Positions 788-13,524 of a stretch of 64,000 bases of DNA are shown piece after piece (position 1 is the stretch's first letter; every line of letters begins with the position of its first letter). Source of the DNA: Rhodobacter capsulatus. Lineage in GTDB: Bacteria > Pseudomonadota > Alphaproteobacteria > Rhodobacterales > Rhodobacteraceae. The position numbers and the translations under genes were made by a program. A model generated the notes under the pieces. The model did no database searches, was not told where the DNA came from, and worked only from the letters and a program-made list of their open reading frames with translations. The DNA lies in contig NZ_QKZO01000011.1 of the NCBI RefSeq assembly GCF_003254295.1, positions 62,001 to 126,000 on the forward strand, given 5' to 3'.

Positions 788-957
788 GGGTGGCAGGTCT
801 CCTGGCTTGCGGGTCCGGGCTCGGGTCGGCCTTCCCGGGGTATCCCCAGTGGCATCGTCGACCGTCGCTCGCCGCTCACAGTTGCGGGGGCAGCTGCGGC
901 TTTGCCCGAAGGCACACCGCATTCCCTTTTCATCCCCGCCGAACGGGGAACCAATCC
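788..957 (-). promoter_or_regulatory. Cobalamin (AdoCbl) riboswitch
   Basis: Read on the minus strand, all main conserved blocks are present in order: a GGTTCCCC start, an AAAAGGGAA segment, GCTGCCCCCGCAACTGT, the B12-box core GCCACTGGG, and the closing GCAAGCCAGGAGACCTGCC. The aptamer ends about 150 nt upstream of the leftward DUF4198 start. That leader contains GC-rich inverted segments and two copies of GAGCCGGGCAGA that could form the expression platform. Binding of cobalamin would be expected to switch off the downstream uptake gene. Confidence 0.93.
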
Positions 958-1013: not shown

Positions 1014-1042
1014 TTGACAGTCACCCGGCAAGCGCGCATGTT
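1014..1042 (+). promoter_or_regulatory. Candidate sigma-70 promoter for the rightward riboswitch transcript
   Basis: TTGACA is followed after exactly 17 nt by CATGTT, just upstream of the rightward cobalamin aptamer. The -35 is perfect and the -10 is poor. On the other strand TTGACG (993-988) could be the -35 of the leftward riboswitch transcript, but I see no convincing -10 for it. Confidence 0.4.
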
Positions 1043-1051
1043 GCCCCCGCC

Positions 1052-1212
1052 TTGGTTCCGCGGCTGATCCCGCGGACGAAGAGGGAAGCCGGTGCAAGTC
1101 CGGCGCTGCCCCCGCAACTGTAAGCGGCAAGCCCCGAGCACGGCCACTGATCGCAGGATCGGGAAGGCGCAAGGGGCGTTCGAGCCGCAAGCCAGGAGAC
1201 CTGCCAGGCCGA
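1052..1212 (+). promoter_or_regulatory. Cobalamin (AdoCbl) riboswitch
   Basis: The plus strand shows AGAGGGAAGCCGGTGCAAGT, GCTGCCCCCGCAACTGTAAG, GGCCACTG, GGGAAGGCGC and GCAAGCCAGGAGACCTGCC in the canonical order and spacing. It sits back to back with the minus-strand riboswitch; the two aptamers are separated by under 100 nt holding both promoters. It precedes the DUF1636-cobQ-cobQ genes and should repress them when cobalamin is plentiful. Confidence 0.95.
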
Positions 1213-1308
1213 AAACCATCCCGGGCGGCGGGCCCGGAGGCAGGGTGCTTCGGCTTGTCCGGGGCCTGTCCCCTTACCGCTTTCCGGCCCAATGCCAGAG
1301 GAACGGTA

Positions 1309-1872: not shown

Positions 1873-3447
1873 ATGACCCTCTCGCTTCCCGACCACGATC
1901 CGGTGCCGCCGCTGCCGGAACTCGATGTGCCGTTCCTGACCCCGCCGCCGCCGCGGCGCGGCCGGGCGCTGATGATCCAGGGCACCAGTTCCGATGTCGG
2001 CAAAAGCCTGCTGGTGGCCGGGCTGTGCCGCGCCTATGCCCGCCGCGGGCTGAAAGTGGCGCCGTTCAAGGCGCAGAACATGTCGAACAATGCTGCCGTC
2101 ACCGTGGACAGCGACCTGCCCCCCGGCCCCGACGGTCAGGCCCGGCGCGGCGAGATCGGCCGGGCGCAGGCGCTGCAGGCCCGCGCCGCCGGGGTGGCGC
2201 CCTCGATCCACATGAACCCGGTCCTGCTCAAGCCGCAGGCGCTGGTCGGCTCGCAGGTGGTGCTGCGCGGCCGGGCGCTGGGCAACTGGCCCGCGCGGCA
2301 TTACCACCATCTGAAACCCTTCCTGCTGCCCGCGGTGATGGACAGCTACCGCCGCATCGCCGCCGAAGCCGATCTGGTGCTGGTCGAGGGCGCGGGGGCG
2401 GCGACCGAGACCTGGATCAAGCATTGCGACATCACCAACATGCGTCTGGCCGAGGAGGCCGATCTGCCGGTGGTGCTGCTCACCGACAACGACCGCGGCG
2501 GCGCGCTGGCCGCCGTCGTCGGCAGCTGGATGCTGCATGACGAGGCCGAGCGGGCGCGGGTGAAAGGCATTCTGGTCAACAAGTTCCGCGGCTATTTCTC
2601 GCTTTACGAGCCCGCCTGCCGGACCATGACCGAGATCACCGGCTGGCCCTTTCTGGGGGTTGCGCGCTGGTTCGAGGCGGCGGGGCAGCTTCCGGCCGAG
2701 GATGCGCTGGCGCTGGAACGTCCCGCGACGGGCAATGGCGCGGGGCTGATCGTCGCCGTGCCGCATCTGGATGGCGTGGCGAATTTCGACGACCTCGACC
2801 CCTTGGGCGCCGAGCCCGGCGTCGATCTGCGCTGGGTCCGCCAGGGCCAGCCGATCCCGCCCGAGGCCGATGTGGTGCTGTTGCCGGGATCAAAAACCAC
2901 CCGGGCCGCGCTGGCCACCCTGCGCGCGCAGGGCTGGGATGTGGACATCCGCGCGCATCTGCGCCGCGGCGGCCGCGTCGTCGGGATTTGCGCGGGGTTT
3001 CAGATGCTTGGCCGGGTCGTGCGCGACCCCGAAGGGATCGAGGGCCCGGCGGGCGAGACCGAGGGTCTGGGGCTTCTGGACCTCGAAACCGTGATGACGC
3101 GCGACAAGATGCTGACCGAGGTGCAGGCGACCGATGCGCGCAGCGGTCAGGGTCTGGCGGGCTACGAAATGCACATGGGCCGCACCACCGGGCCGGGGCT
3201 TGACCGGCCGTGGTTCCGGCTCGACGGCCGCCCCGAGGGGGCGGTGTCCGGCGATGGAAGGGTGATGGGGACCTATCTGCACGGGCTCTTCGGGGCGGAT
3301 GGCTTTCGCGGTCATTGGATCACCGCGATGGGCGGGCGGGCCTCGGGGCTCGATCATGCCGCGCAGACCGAGGCGACGCTGGAGGCGCTGGCCGATCAGC
3401 TGGAGGAAGACCTTGATCTGGACGCGCTGCTGGCGCTGGCGAAATGA
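1873..3447 (+). CDS. cobQ: Cobyric acid synthase (first of two tandem copies)
   Basis: This glutamine-dependent enzyme amidates carboxylates b, d, e and g of adenosylcobyrinic a,c-diamide. The 524-residue product has a dethiobiotin-synthetase-like N-terminal domain with P-loop GTSSDVGKS near residues 37-45 and the CobQ signature APFKAQNMSNNAAVT. The C-terminal type-1 amidotransferase domain has the nucleophile Cys in GICAGFQMLG and the catalytic His in YLHGLFG. Relative to the second copy it has a roughly 35-residue Pro-rich N-terminal extension and a 14-residue insertion (SDLPPGPDGQARR region) after NNAAVT. Its stop overlaps the next start by 4 nt (ATGA), so the two are co-translated. Confidence 0.93.
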   Translation: MTLSLPDHDPVPPLPELDVPFLTPPPPRRGRALMIQGTSSDVGKSLLVAGLCRAYARRGLKVAPFKAQNMSNNAAVTVDSDLPPGPDGQARRGEIGRAQALQARAAGVAPSIHMNPVLLKPQALVGSQVVLRGRALGNWPARHYHHLKPFLLPAVMDSYRRIAAEADLVLVEGAGAATETWIKHCDITNMRLAEEADLPVVLLTDNDRGGALAAVVGSWMLHDEAERARVKGILVNKFRGYFSLYEPACRTMTEITGWPFLGVARWFEAAGQLPAEDALALERPATGNGAGLIVAVPHLDGVANFDDLDPLGAEPGVDLRWVRQGQPIPPEADVVLLPGSKTTRAALATLRAQGWDVDIRAHLRRGGRVVGICAGFQMLGRVVRDPEGIEGPAGETEGLGLLDLETVMTRDKMLTEVQATDARSGQGLAGYEMHMGRTTGPGLDRPWFRLDGRPEGAVSGDGRVMGTYLHGLFGADGFRGHWITAMGGRASGLDHAAQTEATLEALADQLEEDLDLDALLALAK

Positions 3448-4898
3448 CGGCGCGGCGGCTGATGGTGCTGGGCACCGGCTCGGATGTGGGCAAAAGCCTC
3501 TTCGTCGCGGGGCTGGCGCGGGCCTTCACCCGGCGCGGGCTGAAGGTGGCGCCCTTCAAGGCGCAGAACATGTCGAACAACGCGGCGGTGACGGCGGATG
3601 GCGGCGAGATCGGCCGGGCGCAGGCGCTGCAGGCGCGGGCGGCGGGGGTTCCCCTGTCCGTCCACATGAACCCGGTTCTGCTCAAGCCCGACAGCGATGT
3701 CGATGCGCAGGTGGTGGTGCAGGGGCAGGTGCTGGGGCGGTTTTCCGCGGCGGACTATCAGGCGCTGAAGCCAAGCCTGCGGGGGCGGGTGATCGAGAGC
3801 CTGGATCATCTTTCGGCGACGCATGATCTGGTGCTGATCGAGGGGGCGGGCAGCGGCGCCGAACGCTATCTGCGGCCGCAGGACATTTCCAACATGGGTC
3901 TGGCCGAGGCCGCCGATCTGCCGGTGCTGCTTTTGGGCGACGAGTCGCGCGGCGGGGTGACGGCGGCGGTGATCGGGCATCATCACCTGTGGACCGCGTC
4001 TGAGCGCGCCCGGGTGGGCGGCGTGATCGTGACCAAATTCCGCGGTGATCCGGCGATCTTCGCCCCGGCGGCGGCGGATATCCGCGCCGAGACCGGCTGG
4101 CCGGTGCTGGGGCTGATGCGCTGGTCCGAGGCGGCAAGGCGCCTGCCCGAGGAGGATTCGCTGGGTCTTGCGCGCAAGCGCGGCGCGGCGGGGGCGCTTG
4201 TCGTGGCGGTGCTCGAGCTGCCGCGGGTGGCGAATTTCGACGACCTCGACCCGCTTGCCGCCGAACCGGGCGTCGATCTGCGCTGGGTCCGTCCGGGGCA
4301 GCCGATCCCGGCCGAGGCCGCGGTAGTGATCCTGCCCGGGTCAAAGGCCACGCGGGCCGCGCTGACGGCGCTGCGCGCCGAGGGCTGGGATGTCGATCTC
4401 CGCGCGCATCTGCGCCGGGGCGGGCGCGTCGTGGGGATTTGCGCGGGGTTTCAGATGCTTGGCCGCGTCGTGCGCGACCCCGAAGGGATCGAGGGCACCC
4501 CGGGCGAAACCGAGGGGCTGGGGCTGCTTGATCTTGAAACGGTGATCGGGCCGACGAAGCGGCTGGCCGGGATCGACGCTCTCGACTATGCCAGCGGCGC
4601 CGGCGTGAGCGGCTACGAGATGCATATGGGCCGGAGCTTTGGCCCGGATCTGGCCCGGCCGTGGCTTGTTCCGGACGGGCGGCCCGAGGGGGCGGTCAGC
4701 GTCGACGGCAAGGTGATGGGCAGTTATCTGCACGGGCTTTTCGGCGCGGCGGGCTTTCGTGGCCATTGGCTTGCGCAGCAGGGCATCACCGCCGCAGCGC
4801 AAGACCACGGCGCCCGGATCGAGGCCGCCCTTGATGCCTTTGCCGCGGAAATCGAGGCCGATCTCGACCTTGACGCGCTTCTGGATCTGGCGCGATAG
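3444..4898 (+). CDS. cobQ: Cobyric acid synthase (second tandem copy)
   Basis: The 484-residue product is of usual CobQ length: P-loop GTGSDVGKS at residues 8-16, APFKAQNMSNNAAVT, GICAGFQMLG nucleophile elbow and YLHGLFG. All key residues seen in the first copy are kept, so neither looks like a pseudogene. Stretches such as GVDLRWVR.GQPIP and RVVRDPEGIEG are nearly identical between the two, which suggests tandem duplication followed by divergence, mainly in the N-terminal half. This copy lacks the insertion and extension of its neighbour. It is the last gene of the riboswitch operon; metH follows with its own promoter. Confidence 0.93.
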   Translation: MTARRLMVLGTGSDVGKSLFVAGLARAFTRRGLKVAPFKAQNMSNNAAVTADGGEIGRAQALQARAAGVPLSVHMNPVLLKPDSDVDAQVVVQGQVLGRFSAADYQALKPSLRGRVIESLDHLSATHDLVLIEGAGSGAERYLRPQDISNMGLAEAADLPVLLLGDESRGGVTAAVIGHHHLWTASERARVGGVIVTKFRGDPAIFAPAAADIRAETGWPVLGLMRWSEAARRLPEEDSLGLARKRGAAGALVVAVLELPRVANFDDLDPLAAEPGVDLRWVRPGQPIPAEAAVVILPGSKATRAALTALRAEGWDVDLRAHLRRGGRVVGICAGFQMLGRVVRDPEGIEGTPGETEGLGLLDLETVIGPTKRLAGIDALDYASGAGVSGYEMHMGRSFGPDLARPWLVPDGRPEGAVSVDGKVMGSYLHGLFGAAGFRGHWLAQQGITAAAQDHGARIEAALDAFAAEIEADLDLDALLDLAR

Positions 4899-4955: not shown

Positions 4956-4984
4956 TTGCTGAAAGGTGACTTGTGGCCTATCTG
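4956..4984 (+). promoter_or_regulatory. Candidate sigma-70 promoter of the split metH operon
   Basis: TTGCTG and TATCTG are separated by exactly 17 nt, and the expected start point lies about 15-20 nt upstream of the metH start codon. The palindrome immediately upstream would be centred near -50, a position suited to an activator or an upstream repressor. Confidence 0.5.
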
Positions 4985-5007
4985 CCTTCCACCCGAGGGA
5001 GATTGCC

Positions 5008-6041
5008 ATGCTGACCCAGACCCTGCCCAGATCGACGGCCTTTGCCGCGCTTGAGGCCCTTGCCCGTGACCGTATCCTGATCCTTGACGGGGCGATGGGC
5101 ACGCAGATCCAACAGCTTGGCCTGAGCGAGGCGGATTTTCTGGGCCGCGGCTCGGGCTGCGCCTGCCGCCATGCCACCGATCACCCGCAAAAGGGCAACA
5201 ACGATCTGCTGGTGCTGACCCAGCCGCAGGCGATCGAGGAGATCCACTTCCGCTATGCGATGGCGGGGGCGGATATCGTCGAGACCAACACATTCTCCGC
5301 CACTACCATCGCGCAGGCCGATTACGGGCTGGAGGGCGCGGTGTTTGACCTGAACGCCGCGGGTGCGCGGGTGGCGCGGGCGGCGATGGACCGTGCCGAG
5401 GCCACCGACGGGCGGCGCCGCTTCGTTGCGGGGGCCGTGGGGCCGACGAACCGCACCGCCTCGCTCTCGCCCGATGTGAACGACCCGGGCTACCGCGCCG
5501 TCACTTTCGACGATCTGCGCACCGCTTACGGCCAGCAGGTGCGCGGGCTGATCGCGGGCGGCGCCGATATCCTGCTGATCGAGACGATCTTTGACACGCT
5601 GAACGCCAAGGCCGCCATTTTCGCCTGTTTCGAGGCCTTTGCCGAGCGGGGCGAGCGGTTGCCGGTGATGATTTCGGGCACGATCACCGATGCCTCGGGG
5701 CGCACGCTCTCGGGGCAGACGCCGACCGCGTTCTGGCATTCCGTGGCCCATGCCCGGCCCTTCACCGTCGGGCTGAACTGCGCTTTGGGCGCAAGCGCGA
5801 TGCGCCCGCATCTGGCGGAACTGGCGGGCGTCGCCCCCTGCGCGATCTGCGCCTATCCCAATGCCGGGTTGCCGAATGCCTTTGGCCAATATGATGAAAC
5901 CCCCGACCAGACCGCCGCGCAAGTGGCGGAATTTGCCCGCGAAGGGCTGGTCAATGTCGTGGGCGGCTGCTGTGGCACCACCCCCGATCACATCCGCGCC
6001 ATCGCGGCAGCCGTGAAACCTTTCCCGCCGAGGGCCCTGTC

Positions 6042-6045
<4 letters not shown>
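5008..6045 (+). CDS. metH: Methionine synthase, homocysteine-binding module (split MetH, part 1)
   Basis: This is the zinc-dependent homocysteine S-methyltransferase module that takes the methyl group from methylcobalamin. The 345-residue product begins the domain with [10 protein letters not shown]. It has the zinc ligands in [14 protein letters not shown] and in [14 protein letters not shown] near the C-terminus. In most bacteria this module is fused to the rest of MetH; here it ends with a stop that overlaps the next start by 4 nt. The start is chosen at MLTQTLPRS, 6-7 nt after GAGGGAG; an upstream in-frame start 42 nt earlier falls inside the promoter region. Confidence 0.92.
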
Positions 6046-8768
<2,723 letters not shown>

Positions 8769-8839
8769 TCCTGTCTTAAAACGTGGGCAGCGCGTCGTTT
8801 TTGGCGCGCGCCTTCTGCGACAATCTGTCAGGCTGAAGG

Positions 8840-9007
8840 CCTCAGGGTGCCCGTCCGCAAGGCCGGGAGAATTGGGAAGCCGGTGCAGGACCGGCGCTGC
8901 CCCCGCAACGGTCAGCAATGAGGGACGGCAAGGCCACTGGACCCAAGGTCCGGGAAGGGGCCGCGCCCGGGTGCGACAGCACGCATTGCAAGCCCGGAAA
9001 CCAGCCC
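8840..9007 (+). promoter_or_regulatory. Cobalamin riboswitch upstream of the Rieske oxygenase pair
   Basis: The conserved blocks are GGTGCCC, GGGAAGCCGGTGCAGGACC, GCTGCCCCCGCAACGGTCAGC, GGCCACTGG, CGGGAAGGGG and a slightly divergent closing GCAAGCCCGGAAACCAGCC. It lies between metH part 2 and gbcA and fills most of the 312-nt gap. A GGGCCC-AA-GGGCCC hairpin follows and could belong to the expression platform. The 60 nt between metH and the aptamer show no promoter I can defend. Confidence 0.92.
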
Positions 9008-9080
9008 CGAGACCGCCGGGCCCAAGGGCCCATCCATCCAACCAGCCCTTGCGGGGAGGCAGGGGCAAGTGAGGTGCAAG

Positions 9081-10316
9081 ATGCCGAACGCATCCGACAT
9101 CCGTGCGCAGCTCGCCGCACGGCGCAAGGACCATTCCCTGCCGCAACCCTTCTACTGCGATCCGGGGATCTTCCAGACCGATCTGACGCAGATCTTCTAC
9201 CGCGAGTGGCTGTTTGCCATTCCCGCCTGTCAGCTGCAAAAGCCCGGCGATTACGCGACGTTGCAGGTGGGCGCCTGTCCGGTGATCCTGGTGCGTGGCG
9301 CCGATGCGATGATCCGCGCCTTTCACAACGTCTGCCGCCATCGCGGCCAGCGGCTTTGCGCCAAGGCGACGGGGAACAGCCCGAAGCTTGTCTGCCCCTA
9401 TCATCAATGGACCTATGACCTGGACGGCAAACTGCTCTGGGCCAAGGACATGCAGGCGGATTTCAACCCCGCCGCGCATGGGCTGAAAAAGGTGCATTGC
9501 GTCGATATCGGCGGGATGGTCTTCATCTGTCTGGCCGAGGTGCCGCCCGCGATTGCCGATCTGGCGGGCACTCTGGGCCGCTATCTGCTGCCTGCCGGGC
9601 TGAAACAGGCCCGCGTTGCCCATGTCTCGACCATCATCGAGAAGGGGAACTGGAAGCTGGTGATCGAGAACAACCGCGAATGCTATCACTGCGGCGGCGC
9701 GCATCCGTCGCTCTGCCGGACCTATTCCGACAATCCGCGGATGACCGCGATGGAGGGCCCCGAGGCGGCAAGCCCCGACATTCTCGCGCATTGGGCGCGC
9801 TGCGAGGCGGCGGGTCTGCCCTCGCGCTTCGTGCATCATCCGCAGATGCAATGGCGGCTGGCCCGCATTCCGCTGCTGAATGGCGCCGAGAGCTACACGA
9901 TGAGCACCAAGGCCGCGGTGAAGGGCAAGCGTCTGGGCGAGATGCCCTTCAACGATGCCGGAAGCCTGCTCTTCTTCCACTATCCGAACACCTGGAACCA
10001 TTTTCTGGCCGATCATGCGATCGTCTTCCGGGTGCTGCCGATCTCGGCCACCGAGACCGAGGTGACGACGACCTGGCTTGTGCCCGGCGAGGCCGTCGAG
10101 GGAGTGGATTACGACCTGACGGAACTCACCGAGGTCTGGACGGCGACGAATGACGAGGACCGGCAGGTGGTCGAGGAAAATCAGGCGGGGATACTCTCGC
10201 CCGCCTATGAGCCCGGCCCCTATTCGACGCTGCAGGAAGAGGGCGTGATCCAGTTCGTCGACTGGTATTGCGGCACTTTGGACGCGCGGCTTTCCCCGCC
10301 GCTGGCGGCGGAGTGA
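9081..10316 (+). CDS. gbcA: Rieske non-heme iron oxygenase, glycine betaine demethylase large subunit type
   Basis: The 411-residue protein has a Rieske [2Fe-2S] motif CRHRGQRLC...CPYHQW (CxH...CxxH) near residues 82-107. The mononuclear iron region shows ENNRECYHCGGAHPSLC, which closely matches GbcA-type glycine betaine monooxygenases; these convert glycine betaine to dimethylglycine and formaldehyde. The start ATG follows GAGGTG; an upstream in-frame GTG is less likely. The reductase gene follows after 3 nt. A related quaternary-amine substrate such as carnitine or stachydrine cannot be excluded. The riboswitch control is unexpected for this family. Confidence 0.85.
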   Translation: MPNASDIRAQLAARRKDHSLPQPFYCDPGIFQTDLTQIFYREWLFAIPACQLQKPGDYATLQVGACPVILVRGADAMIRAFHNVCRHRGQRLCAKATGNSPKLVCPYHQWTYDLDGKLLWAKDMQADFNPAAHGLKKVHCVDIGGMVFICLAEVPPAIADLAGTLGRYLLPAGLKQARVAHVSTIIEKGNWKLVIENNRECYHCGGAHPSLCRTYSDNPRMTAMEGPEAASPDILAHWARCEAAGLPSRFVHHPQMQWRLARIPLLNGAESYTMSTKAAVKGKRLGEMPFNDAGSLLFFHYPNTWNHFLADHAIVFRVLPISATETEVTTTWLVPGEAVEGVDYDLTELTEVWTATNDEDRQVVEENQAGILSPAYEPGPYSTLQEEGVIQFVDWYCGTLDARLSPPLAAE

Positions 10317-10319
10317 TCG

Positions 10320-11369
10320 ATGGACCGGATCAACTGGGCCAGCGCGCCGTGGAGTGACGCCGAGCCGCTCGAATGCGCGATGGTGGTGCCCGAAACCGCC
10401 GATACCGCCACGATCACCTTCCGCGCGCCTTCGGGCGCGTGGTTCGACTACCTGCCCGGGCAGTTCCTGACGCTGGATCTGCCGGTGCCGGGCCAGCCGG
10501 TCAGCCGGACCTATACGATCTCGTCTTCACCCTCGCGGCCCCTGTCGCTGTCGGTGACGGTGAAGGCGCAGCCCGGGTCGGTGGGGTCACGCTGGCTGAT
10601 CGACGCGCTGAAACCGGGGATGCGGCTGCGGGCGCATGGGCCTGCGGGCGATTTCAGCCTGCGCCAGCATCCGGCGCGCAAATATCTGTTCATCTCGGCG
10701 GGCTCGGGCATCACACCGATGATGTCGATGACGACCTGGGCCTGGGACAGCGGCGAGATGCCCGACATCGTCTTTGTCCATGCAGCGCGGCGGCCCTCCG
10801 ACATCATCTTCCGCCCCCGGCTGGAACAATTCGCGGCGCGGGTGCCGGGGTTGCAGCTGCGCTTCACGGTGGAAGAGGTCGAGCCTTTCAGCGTCTGGCA
10901 CGGCTTTCGCGGGCGGCTCAACCAGATCATGCTGGGGCTGATGGCGCCGGATTATCTGGAACGCGAGGTGTTCTGTTGCGGCCCCGAGCCCTTCATGCGC
11001 TCCGTCAAGGACAGCCTCGCGGCGCTGGGCTTCGACCTTACCCGCTATCATCAGGAAAGCTTCGGCCCGCCCGAGATCGCGCCCGAAACGGTGCCCGAGA
11101 CCACGGAGGCCGCCGAGATCCGCTTCACCGCCTCGGGCGTCAGCACCGCTTGCGCGCCGGGCGAAACCGTGCTGGCGGCGGCGAAACGGGCGGGGCTGAA
11201 CATCCCCTCGGGCTGCAACTTCGGTCTTTGCGGCACCTGCAAGGTGCGCAAGACCGCGGGCGAGGTGCAGATGCTGCACAACGGCGGGATCTCTGAAGAC
11301 GATATCGCCGCGGGCTATATCCTGGCCTGCTGTTCGCGTCCCTCGGGCAAGGTGGCGGTCGAGATCTGA
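10320..11369 (+). CDS. gbcB: Rieske oxygenase reductase (FAD/NAD domain plus 2Fe-2S ferredoxin)
   Basis: The 349-residue electron-transfer partner of the preceding oxygenase starts with an FAD-binding domain (RTYTISSSP near residues 62-70). An NAD-binding domain follows, with SAGSGITPMMSM and CCGPEPFM. It ends in a plant-type [2Fe-2S] ferredoxin domain with CNFGLCGTCK near residues 299-308 and a fourth Cys in the ACCSRP segment. Domain order FAD-NAD-Fe2S matches GbcB. The 3-nt gap to the oxygenase gene implies one transcript, controlled by the cobalamin riboswitch. Confidence 0.87.
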   Translation: MDRINWASAPWSDAEPLECAMVVPETADTATITFRAPSGAWFDYLPGQFLTLDLPVPGQPVSRTYTISSSPSRPLSLSVTVKAQPGSVGSRWLIDALKPGMRLRAHGPAGDFSLRQHPARKYLFISAGSGITPMMSMTTWAWDSGEMPDIVFVHAARRPSDIIFRPRLEQFAARVPGLQLRFTVEEVEPFSVWHGFRGRLNQIMLGLMAPDYLEREVFCCGPEPFMRSVKDSLAALGFDLTRYHQESFGPPEIAPETVPETTEAAEIRFTASGVSTACAPGETVLAAAKRAGLNIPSGCNFGLCGTCKVRKTAGEVQMLHNGGISEDDIAAGYILACCSRPSGKVAVEI

Positions 11370-11444: not shown

Positions 11445-12566
11445 TCAGGCCGTCAGCGGGTGCACCGTCGTTCCGGCCCGCAGCATCTCGACACTGTCGC
11501 GCAGGGCCTCCTGCGGCAGATCCCGCCCGATGATCACGATGCGGCTTTTGCGGTCGCTGCCGGTCCAGCGCGCCAGCCGCACCGGCGGATCGACGATATG
11601 CTGCACGCCGTGGATCACATAGGGCGTGTCGATCCCCTCGGCCCAGAGCACCGCCTTGAGCCGCAGGATCTCTGCGCCACGGGTGGCCAAGAGCGTCTCC
11701 AGCCAGAGATCGAGCATCACCGGGTGGATCGGCGTATCGATCACCATCGAGACCGAGCTGATGCGGTCGTCATGCCGCGACGGCGGCGGCATCGCGCCGT
11801 GCAGGGCCGGTCTGGCCGCGGGAAGGCCGAAAAGCCCATGCGTCGGGCCCTCGGGCTGGGCGACGGGCGCGGGGAGGAGAGTGGGCGCAGGGAGGAGAGT
11901 GGGCGTCAGCGGCGCCTTGATCCAGGCTCCCGCCGCGGGCAGGGGGGCGCCGGTCTCGGGGGCGCCGTGGCCGAACAGCGCGGCCAGCGGCAGCTGGCCC
12001 GGCCGAGCCTGCAACAGCCTGGCGCCGGGGGCAAGCGCCGCCAGACGCGCGCTCAGCCGGGCGATGTCGAAGGGGCGGGCCAGATCGGTCTTGGTCAGCA
12101 CCAGCACATCGGCCATCGCCACCTGCTGCACGCTTTCAAAGCCTGCATCAAGCGTCGCCGCCCCGTTCACCGCATCGCAAACGGTGATCACCCCATCCAG
12201 CCGCAGCCTGCCGCGCAGCTGCGGCGCCACGACCAGCGTGTGCAGGATCGGCGTCGGATCGGCAAGGCCGGTGGTCTCGATCACGATGCGCGCAAAGGCG
12301 AGATCGCCCCGGTCACGCCGGTCGAGCAGCCCCTCCAGCGCCGTCACCAGATCGCCGCGCACCGTGCAGCAAAGGCAGCCCGAGGCGAGCAGCACGGTTT
12401 CCTCGGTCGTGCCGACGATCAGGTCGTGATCCAGCCCGACATCGCCGAATTCATTCACCACCACCGCGATCCGCCCCGACGAGGCATCGGCCAGCAGCGC
12501 ATTGAGCAAGGTGGTCTTGCCGGCGCCAAGGTAGCCGGTCAGAAGCGTCAGGGGGATGCGGGTCAT
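11445..12566 (-). CDS. COG0523 (CobW/ZigA-like) GTPase, probable zinc metallochaperone
   Basis: The 373-residue G3E GTPase has Walker A GYLGAGKTTLLN at residues 9-20, the family metal-binding motif GCLCC, IVIETTGLADP, and LTKTDL for guanine specificity. A Pro-rich linker containing LLPAPTLLPAP is encoded by a short direct repeat. The C-terminal CobW domain follows. Although it sits beside cobalamin genes, its promoter carries a Zur-type palindrome 14 nt from the start codon and no riboswitch. That favours zinc-starvation induction over a role in cobaltochelatase. The start is taken at MTRIPL with ATGAGG as ribosome site; further in-frame starts upstream would read through the operator. Confidence 0.85.
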   Translation of the reverse strand: MTRIPLTLLTGYLGAGKTTLLNALLADASSGRIAVVVNEFGDVGLDHDLIVGTTEETVLLASGCLCCTVRGDLVTALEGLLDRRDRGDLAFARIVIETTGLADPTPILHTLVVAPQLRGRLRLDGVITVCDAVNGAATLDAGFESVQQVAMADVLVLTKTDLARPFDIARLSARLAALAPGARLLQARPGQLPLAALFGHGAPETGAPLPAAGAWIKAPLTPTLLPAPTLLPAPVAQPEGPTHGLFGLPAARPALHGAMPPPSRHDDRISSVSMVIDTPIHPVMLDLWLETLLATRGAEILRLKAVLWAEGIDTPYVIHGVQHIVDPPVRLARWTGSDRKSRIVIIGRDLPQEALRDSVEMLRAGTTVHPLTA

Positions 12567-12580
12567 GCTGGCCTCATGAT

Positions 12581-12595
12581 TGTTATAATGTAACA
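12581..12595. promoter_or_regulatory. Zur-type operator
   Basis: TGTTATAATGTAACA has 5-bp arms TGTTA/TAACA around an AT-rich centre, closely matching alphaproteobacterial Zur boxes as I know them. It ends 14 nt upstream of the COG0523 GTPase start codon, so bound Zur would block the promoter. Confidence 0.7.
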
Positions 12596-12735
12596 TATAC
12601 GAGGCCGCGGGGCAGGGCGCAACACCTCGGGCGGCGGGGCCGGGTCCGCAGCGCAGGCCCGCAGGGCTCCACGCCCGAAGGCTTGCCCTTTCCGCCGCGC
12701 CGGGCGATGCTCGCGCAGCCCAAAGGAGCCTGCCC

Positions 12736-13524
12736 ATGAGTTTCACCCTTGCCACCTGGAACATCAACTCGGTCCGCCTGCGCGAGGCGCTGGTGTGCAA
12801 GCTGATGACCGAGGAGGCCCCCGACGTGCTCTGCCTGCAGGAATGCAAGAGCCCGGTCGACAAGATCCCCTTCGCCGCCTTTGCCGCGCTGGGCTACCGC
12901 TATCACGTCGCGCGCGGGCAAAAGGGCTACAACGGCGTCGCGATTCTTTCGAAACTGCCGATGGTCGAGGCGGGGGCGGGCGATTACGCCAACCTTGGCC
13001 ATGCCCGCCACATCGCCGGGCGGCTGGAAAACGGCGTCACCATCCACAATTTCTACGTCCCCGCGGGGGGCGACATCCCGGACCGGGCGGAAAACGAGAA
13101 ATTCGGCCAGAAGCTCGATTTCCTCACCCATATGCGCGACGATTTCCACGCCCAGCGGCCGGACCGGGCGATCCTGGTCGGCGATCTGAACATCGCGCCG
13201 CGCGAAGATGACGTCTGGAATCACAAGGCGCTGCTGAAGATCGTCTCGCATACGCCGATCGAGGTCGCGCATCTGGCCGCGGCGCAAGACGCGGGCGGCT
13301 GGGTCGATGTCACCCGCGCCGATATCCCCGCGGGTCCGCTCTATTCCTGGTGGTCTTACCGCTCGCCCGACTGGGACGGCGCCGACAAGGGCCGCAGGCT
13401 GGATCACATCTGGGCCACGCCCGACATCGCGGGCGCGGCCCACGGCAGCCGGATCCTGCGCGCCGCGCGCGGCTGGGAGCAGCCCTCGGACCATGCCCCG
13501 GTCTTTGCCAGCTTCGATCTTTGA
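12736..13524 (+). CDS. xthA: Exodeoxyribonuclease III / AP endonuclease
   Basis: This 262-residue Mg-dependent enzyme cleaves DNA at abasic sites in base-excision repair. Motifs of the exonuclease-endonuclease-phosphatase fold are LATWNINSVR at the N-terminus, CLQECK (metal Glu), GDLNIAPRE (catalytic Asp-Asn), and RLDHIWAT plus PSDHAPV at the C-terminus (Asp-His). Length is normal for the family. The start codon is preceded by AAAGGAG. It points away from the COG0523 gene. Confidence 0.96.
   Translation: MSFTLATWNINSVRLREALVCKLMTEEAPDVLCLQECKSPVDKIPFAAFAALGYRYHVARGQKGYNGVAILSKLPMVEAGAGDYANLGHARHIAGRLENGVTIHNFYVPAGGDIPDRAENEKFGQKLDFLTHMRDDFHAQRPDRAILVGDLNIAPREDDVWNHKALLKIVSHTPIEVAHLAAAQDAGGWVDVTRADIPAGPLYSWWSYRSPDWDGADKGRRLDHIWATPDIAGAAHGSRILRAARGWEQPSDHAPVFASFDL

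Follow-up and report, generated by a model that had tools for sequence, protein, structure and literature searches.

A distinct subtype of cobalamin riboswitch precedes genes for a betaine N-demethylase-type Rieske oxygenase in Rhodobacter capsulatus and other Alphaproteobacteria

In a 64,000-nt stretch of the Rhodobacter capsulatus genome (contig NZ_QKZO01000011.1, positions 62,001 to 126,000 of the forward strand; the window, hereafter), a two-gene operon for a Rieske oxygenase and its reductase is preceded by a cobalamin riboswitch. We found riboswitches before homologous oxygenase genes at 58 of the 188 loci searched (166 loci, window included, and 22 further ones), spread over no fewer than seven GTDB families of the Alphaproteobacteria, and they form a distinct subtype of the cobalamin riboswitch. 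The reading we favour, to which we give a probability of about 60%, is that the leader turns off the translation of an O2-dependent betaine N-demethylase at high B12, the operon being a B12-repressed substitute for corrinoid-dependent betaine demethylation. This was also the lead explanation of the original prediction for this DNA, and it is the best of those weighed here, with the substrate left as either glycine betaine or proline betaine.

The aptamer was located by cmscan with Rfam 15 (RF00174, gathering score 31.5 bits) at 8828-9023 (+), where it matches the full model (positions 1-189) with 88.3 bits and an E value of 1.8e-20, far above chance, albeit with the lowest score of the three cobalamin riboswitches in the window; the start given in the original prediction, 8840, falls 12 nt inside it. 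Our own covariance model, R1, trained on 19 riboswitches standing before such an oxygenase gene (gbc-linked, in what follows) and four others, scores it at 133.4 bits, the window sequence having been part of the training set. The full 189-position match, the P6 extension, loop L5 (CCCCCG, 8900..8905, by Rfam structure mapping) and the B12 box (GCCACTG, about 8933-8939, by the Rfam position map) agree with the class I architecture of RF00174. The oxygenase gene occupies 9081..10316 (+): its likelier start is the ATG at 9081, with GAGG at 9071-9074, the alternative being a GTG at 9069 (open reading frame (ORF) 9069-10316). It is followed at 10320..11369 (+) by the gene for a GbcB-like reductase (FAD, NAD, 2Fe-2S). 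Since the next gene, for a CobW-type GTPase (11445-12863), lies on the opposite strand, oxygenase and reductase are the sole same-strand targets of the riboswitch before 11445-12863. A promoter scan found nothing. Between metH and the riboswitch, at 8781-8795, there is one terminator-like site, about what chance would give (0.5 expected).

That only two genes lie downstream had been predicted and stands; the names gbcA and gbcB do not, because both proteins stay below the NCBI equivalog cut-offs (oxygenase, 491 bits against 670 for GbcA, NF058607; reductase, 379 bits against 500 for GbcB, NF058606), and we call the pair GbcAB-like instead. The oxygenase carries the Pfam domains Rieske and Ring_hydroxyl_A. 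Across 20 aligned sequences (alignment A1, numbering counted from GTG 9069), C89, H91, C109 and H112 of the Rieske motif are invariant, as are N202, C205, H207, C208 and H212; H207 and H212 lie near the mononuclear iron, for which D364 is the presumed third (Asp) ligand, and C205 and C208 make up a Cys-x-x-Cys pair. Such a Cys pair is common in group V oxygenases, and group Vb, whose members demethylate either glycine betaine, as GbcA and BmoA do, or proline betaine, as Stc2 does, is marked by an Asn replacing Tyr203 of CntA (PMC7948474, PMC10952381). The window protein has the CxH/CxxH Rieske motif, the two His, the Cys-x-x-Cys and the Asn at the CntA Tyr203 site; by its residues, it is predicted to be a group-Vb quaternary-ammonium N-demethylase acting on betaine, with glycine betaine or proline betaine as candidate substrates.

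The nearest PDB entries are 3n0q and the Stc2-type 3vca and 4qup. With Stc2, the stachydrine (proline betaine) demethylase of Sinorhizobium meliloti (3vca), the oxygenase shares 56% identity and the motif NNRECYHC, which includes the group Vb Asn and the Cys-x-x-Cys; with L240, a GbcA that passes the NCBI cut-off, it shares 50% identity, and the pairing of oxygenase with reductase is that of GbcA/GbcB. In a tree of 173 oxygenase homologues, 55 of which bear the riboswitch label, Stc2, L085 and L208 share a well-supported subclade without riboswitches; the window oxygenase falls outside that subclade, together with L139, L140 and others. Riboswitch-bearing homologues occur in both the Stc2-like clade and the GbcA clade, the latter represented by L118-L120.

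The survey of homologous loci covered 248 sampled genomes of the GTDB family of the window genome, 385 genomes of its class (the window genome itself, G000, counts in both samples) and a named set of 80 loci, which are best matches rather than a random draw and in part duplicate genomes of the other samples. Of the first 166 loci, 54 have a riboswitch in front of a same-strand homologue, at a distance of 71-235 nt. The window genome has a single copy; the family sample holds 49 other loci with at least 55% identity, and R1 places a riboswitch directly upstream in 20 of these, one of them degenerate (L058), while the Rfam search finds it at 15 of the 20 closest family loci and at three of the next nine. 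At class level, Rfam detects it at seven of 20 loci and R1 recovers the same seven among 25 (five further GTDB families: f16, f37, f105, f107 and f155). Amongst the 80 best-matching named loci there are 26 with a riboswitch, one of them partial (L184), the carriers including Rhodobacter, Gemmobacter, Ruegeria, Phaeobacter, Shimia, Sulfitobacter, Roseibium, Hoeflea, Mesorhizobium and Rhizobium. The 22 further loci yielded four riboswitches (L249-L252, family f174), all of the gbc subtype.

On the tree, the riboswitch label requires 20 changes, against a mean of 47.0 after shuffling, and at least 13 are forced by well-supported branches; the label is thus clustered, yet has been gained or lost repeatedly. 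With this clustering and a recurrence at 58 of 188 loci, we reject a chance neighbourhood of riboswitch and oxygenase. On one contig of Roseibium aquae, one demethylase paralogue (L172) carries the riboswitch and the other (L171) does not. Among the matches listed by literature searches of open-licence PMC, there was no earlier report of a riboswitch before gbcA. Rodionov et al. 2003 are said to have listed “ardX-frdX”, an aromatic-ring dioxygenase with a ferredoxin, as regulated by the B12 element in alphaproteobacteria; full-text searches gave no match for ardX. If that listing is correct, the bare association was predicted earlier, and the enzyme assignment and the subtype would, as far as known, still be new.

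The gbc-linked riboswitches are set apart by their core. The searched loci and the window genome together contain 83 riboswitches, 54 before the oxygenase and 29 not; removal of identical sequences left 51 and 27, and the four late loci (L249-L252) bring the comparison to 55 against 27. Four Rfam positions separate the two groups completely. At position 82, all 50 readable gbc-linked copies have G, and all 27 others have T or C. At 161, C in all 49 readable gbc-linked copies contrasts with A or G in the 26 readable others, and at 169, A in all 49 contrasts with T or G in the 26. At 165, in J6/3, A is present in 52 and T in one of 53 readable gbc-linked copies (48 and one of 49 before the late loci were added), and G in all 26 readable others. 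Position 45 divides the groups less sharply (gbc-linked: T 47, C 4; others: A 22, C 2, T 2, G 1). L249-L252 conform at all subtype sites, though R1, with which they were found, had been trained mostly on gbc-linked sequences.

Where canonical RF00174 members have J6/3 AGA, a U-A pair in P6 and mostly an A-U pair in P3, the gbc-linked copies are nearly fixed for AAA, G-C and U-A. The window riboswitch has AAA at 8998-9000, the pair G8910-C8995 in P6 (in the R1 register, Rfam's being off by one position) and U8873-A9003 in P3, all within 8873..9003 (+). Both pair changes are compensated: in alignment A4, comprising 33 riboswitches of named loci fitted to the model, the P6 pair is U-A in the seven others and G-C in the 26 gbc-linked copies. 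The helices are kept throughout A4, with 95.8% of pair cells standard and two-sided changes at 26 of 39 pairs, a level attained in none of 500 shuffles. Riboswitches of the same loci that stand before nrdHIE or metH read GGAGACC; the subtype is therefore not accounted for by local duplication.

J6/3 faces the upper side of the ligand. Upper-ligand specificity is convertible through key pocket residues (PMC9600662), which makes a difference in ligand a reasonable hypothesis. As a tentative extension, which we consider possible though rather less likely than its opposite, the pocket of the gbc-linked aptamers (J6/3, P6, P3) may have been retuned so that it recognises, e.g., methylcobalamin or some other corrinoid form indicative of methyl-corrinoid chemistry; the subtype would then govern a small regulon of its own (betaine demethylase, formaldehyde dehydrogenase and an orphan small protein) alongside the canonical adenosylcobalamin regulon in the same cell.

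As for the expression platform, a hairpin at 9045..9066 (+), GCCCTTGC-GGGGAG-GCAGGGGC, stands just before the Shine-Dalgarno (SD) site, and its loop together with two stem bases (GCGGGG, 9051-9056) is complementary to CCCCGC at 8901-8906, in and beside L5, making it the candidate kissing partner. Of 54 riboswitch leaders, 31 have a hairpin complementary to L5 within their last 60 nt, against 3.8 expected from mononucleotide shuffles (related leaders do not count as independent); of 112 riboswitch-free leaders, eight have one, against 7.0 expected. Nine distinct hairpins are of the longest form. Eight of these retain 6-8 of eight pairs and show compensating changes in the inner stem, whereas L159 retains two of eight and was dismissed as a chance match. 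The hairpin counts, like the neighbour-gene counts below, exclude L249-L252. In studied cobalamin riboswitches, a kissing loop between L5 and L13 promotes a hairpin at the ribosome-binding site and so causes repression (PMC10653944); by analogy, the window leader would be a translational OFF switch.

An opposite sign has been reported for one corrinoid riboswitch, of cobT, that activates (PMC10653944), and with the distinct core, J6/3 included, it lends some plausibility to an atypical output, in which the subtype would turn its genes ON with corrinoid or sense another corrinoid form. We give this little chance: a Rieske oxygenase has no corrinoid-dependent step that could profit from induction, and a hairpin adjacent to the SD site suits an OFF design.

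A search with an exact 16-base signature of the subtype returned 31 places in the 248 family genomes: 25 riboswitches (23 recognised by R1, the one of G000, and one in G118 by its place in L048) and six sites inside ORFs without an R1 match. Of those riboswitches, 20 stand before a Rieske gene and five before an orphan small ORF that follows uvrD. The 385 class genomes have 15 such places, nine being riboswitches and six taken as chance; one of the latter, L225, gives a weak R1 match (20.2 bits, E 0.002) without the AATTGGGAA core. Eight of the nine precede a Rieske gene and one, in G546, precedes fdhA, which encodes a glutathione-independent formaldehyde dehydrogenase (711 bits, cut-off 637; L236:5476-6663 (-)), a fitting partner because demethylation releases formaldehyde. 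In the same region of G546, a canonical riboswitch diverges toward the gene for a 354-aa homocysteine-methyltransferase-like protein (L236:7792-8853 (+)).

The orphan protein, found downstream of uvrD and a subtype riboswitch in five of 248 genomes, is conserved (92-98 aa, AARxGFLEW..., with an RRGG...RR tail) and encoded at L299:10447-10722 (-), L300:1064-1357 (-), L297:2994-3275 (+), L296:9461-9742 (-) and L298:9855-10130 (-). The UvrD call is by Pfam at three of these loci and by 81-91% identity to one of those three at all of them. For the small protein itself, we obtained no match in Pfam at E 0.01 or in NCBIfam at E 1, and among PDB chains nothing better than E 0.4. The subtype thus occurs mostly with betaine-demethylase-type genes; that it is exclusive to them is rejected by fdhA (once) and by the orphan small protein (five times).

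The gene neighbourhoods also distinguish the riboswitch copies (43 riboswitch loci against 80 others, kinship ignored in the p values of this pair): an OYE gene is nearby at 0/43 against 26/80 (p 3.5e-6) and a LysR gene at 1/43 against 22/80 (p 4e-4). Riboswitch copies are thus mostly set apart from the catabolic OYE/LysR neighbourhoods of riboswitch-free copies, and at the window locus both genes are absent. In the window, the operon sits in a cobQ-metH-cobW neighbourhood, and betaine feeding lifts the B12 yield of producers (PMC8123684). These two facts could suggest that gbcAB is induced along with the B12-synthesis genes to feed corrin synthesis, betaine demethylation supplying glycine for 5-aminolevulinate and one-carbon units. 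We consider this rather improbable: elsewhere, cob genes rarely adjoin riboswitch copies (CobQ 1/43, CobW types 1/43), a formaldehyde dehydrogenase under the subtype suggests a role in demethylation and detoxification, not in corrin supply, and the distinct riboswitch subtype is left unexplained.

Just upstream of the riboswitch, as predicted, lies a split MetH, whose homocysteine part (S-methyl_trans) is encoded at 4966-6045 (+) and whose remainder (Pterin_bind, B12-binding and Met_synt_B12, for the folate, B12 and activation domains) at 6042-8768 (+); it precedes the riboswitch at 8828-9023 and is not behind it. If MetH fails, betaine methyls, or those of any methylated amine at hand, might be oxidised to formaldehyde to refill folate one-carbon pools or relieve a methyl-folate trap. 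The absence of a PF01717 (MetE) match in the window genome speaks for such a rescue, as do MetH genes near some copies, in the same direction in L047, L146 and L069; nevertheless we deem it unlikely, as oxidative demethylation by itself yields no methionine and MetH adjoins just four of 43 riboswitch loci (one of them 32% identical) against 1/80 (p 0.05).

Returning to the substitution reading, B12-dependent glycine betaine demethylation by MtgB-MtgC-MtgD is carried out under aerobic conditions by Ruegeria pomeroyi (PMC12478193). This system would have the first reaction in common with the window enzyme and is its candidate B12-dependent counterpart; it works by corrinoid methyl transfer, whereas the window enzyme is of the type that oxidises with O2. 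In the window genome, we found one protein of the MttB family and a stand-alone corrinoid protein of MtgC type, which is separated by about 1.2 kb from a betaine-homocysteine methyltransferase (614 bits, cut-off 338). Three GCV_T frames (848, 869 and 1091 aa) are as long as dimethylglycine- and sarcosine-demethylating enzymes (assigned by size only), and the missing PF01717 (MetE) match counts in favour of this reading as well. Six gbcA-bearing family genomes lack a stand-alone MtgC-type protein: five of them (G046, G226, G094, G088 and G083, the last 43% identical) have no riboswitch, and the sixth, G118, which is 84% complete, has one. The neatest contrast to the window genome is G046, of the same genus, in which MttB, MtgC and the riboswitch before its copy are all absent. 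Class Ib ribonucleotide reductase (RNR) genes that have riboswitches of their own adjoin the operon in some loci.

Several observations weigh against our reading. There is no riboswitch at 130 of the 188 homologous loci, among them L139, which of the named relatives is closest (80-81% identical). Of 54 riboswitch leaders, 23 lack the SD-adjacent hairpin; these include the more distant leaders, and several of the distant ones show a hairpin with a similar loop close to the aptamer. The leader's fold energy (z 0.12) is uninformative. The five subtype riboswitches before the orphan small protein imply that the subtype is not purely a betaine signal. NrdE is a neighbour at 6/43 riboswitch loci (one 30% identical) against 4/80, which is not significant (p 0.096). 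As to the counterpart, the best NCBIfam match of the MttB protein is the trimethylamine model (254 bits, cut-off 525), and the MtgC-type protein remains under the NCBI MtgC cut-off (195 against 370). Furthermore, MttB occurs in 235 of 248 family genomes, and a stand-alone MtgC-type protein in 19 of 20 riboswitch-bearing against 23 of 27 riboswitch-free ones with an orthologue of at least 55% identity (p 0.38; G238, with a degenerate riboswitch and an MtgC-type protein, is set aside). Both being nearly universal in the family, their co-occurrence is uninformative and was rejected as proof of a pairing. The PNAS survey (PMC12478193) describes GbcAB in genomes without MtgBCDE, so that, in the part of it concerned with these genes, the pairing of both routes is not the emphasis.

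For the original prediction, this means that its B12-independent route of demethylation is backed by the recurrence and by the MttB- and MtgC-type genes, while the substrate it named, glycine betaine, may instead be proline betaine. The setting of limited corrinoid that it assumed draws no strength from MetH adjacency, which is uncommon, or from MtgC co-occurrence.

The window genome contains 12 cobalamin riboswitches. Besides the gbc-linked one, cmscan located two in the window, at 791-953 (-) and 1036-1222 (+), which form a cluster within about 1.7 kb with a third, at G000:C11:61559-61754 (-). A tandem pair of overlapping cobQ genes (1873-3447 and 3444-4898; 588 and 574 bits, against a cut-off of 273 for cobyric acid synthase) starts about 650 nt downstream of 1036-1222. 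The MetH ORFs likewise overlap, and their split, with a separate homocysteine domain, recurs in several related loci. Genes behind several of the other riboswitches encode a BtuB-like receptor, ExbB, CbiM, CobW-CobN, NrdD and DUF4198 (the last behind two of them), content typical of a B12 regulon; some first genes have no family match. The anaerobic RNR gene nrdD (L103:7616-9643 (+)) lies directly behind a canonical cobalamin riboswitch.

B12-free RNRs are known targets of cobalamin riboswitches. metE, too, is found under one (PMC9600662), and B12-independent isozymes are a recognised category of B12 riboswitch targets (PMC3766115). The oxygenase operon would best be read as a further member of this group, alongside MetE and the B12-free RNRs, with the difference that the riboswitches before nrdD in the window genome and before nrdHIE in L069 and L051 keep the canonical J6/3. 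With plentiful B12, the riboswitch would shut off translation of the two-gene betaine N-demethylase operon. When corrinoid is scarce, a corrinoid-dependent route of the MtgB/MtgC type would fail and the aptamer would be empty; the SD-adjacent hairpin, no longer held by L5, would allow the GbcAB-like enzyme to be made, and this would use O2 and NAD(P)H to oxidise one of the methyls of glycine or proline betaine, giving formaldehyde.

What merits experiments here is the assignment of the enzyme, the conserved subtype with its fdhA and small-protein targets, and the pairing with MttB/MtgC. The subtype provides a natural comparison set, with two kinds of cobalamin aptamer in one cell, by which the pocket rules for ligand choice become testable. 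If our reading is true, betaine demethylation joins the short list of reactions switched between B12-dependent and B12-free enzymes, at a time when the B12-dependent betaine route has recently been shown to be important in marine bacteria (PMC12478193), and B12 supply would decide whether such alphaproteobacteria send betaine methyls to folate or oxidise them to formaldehyde.

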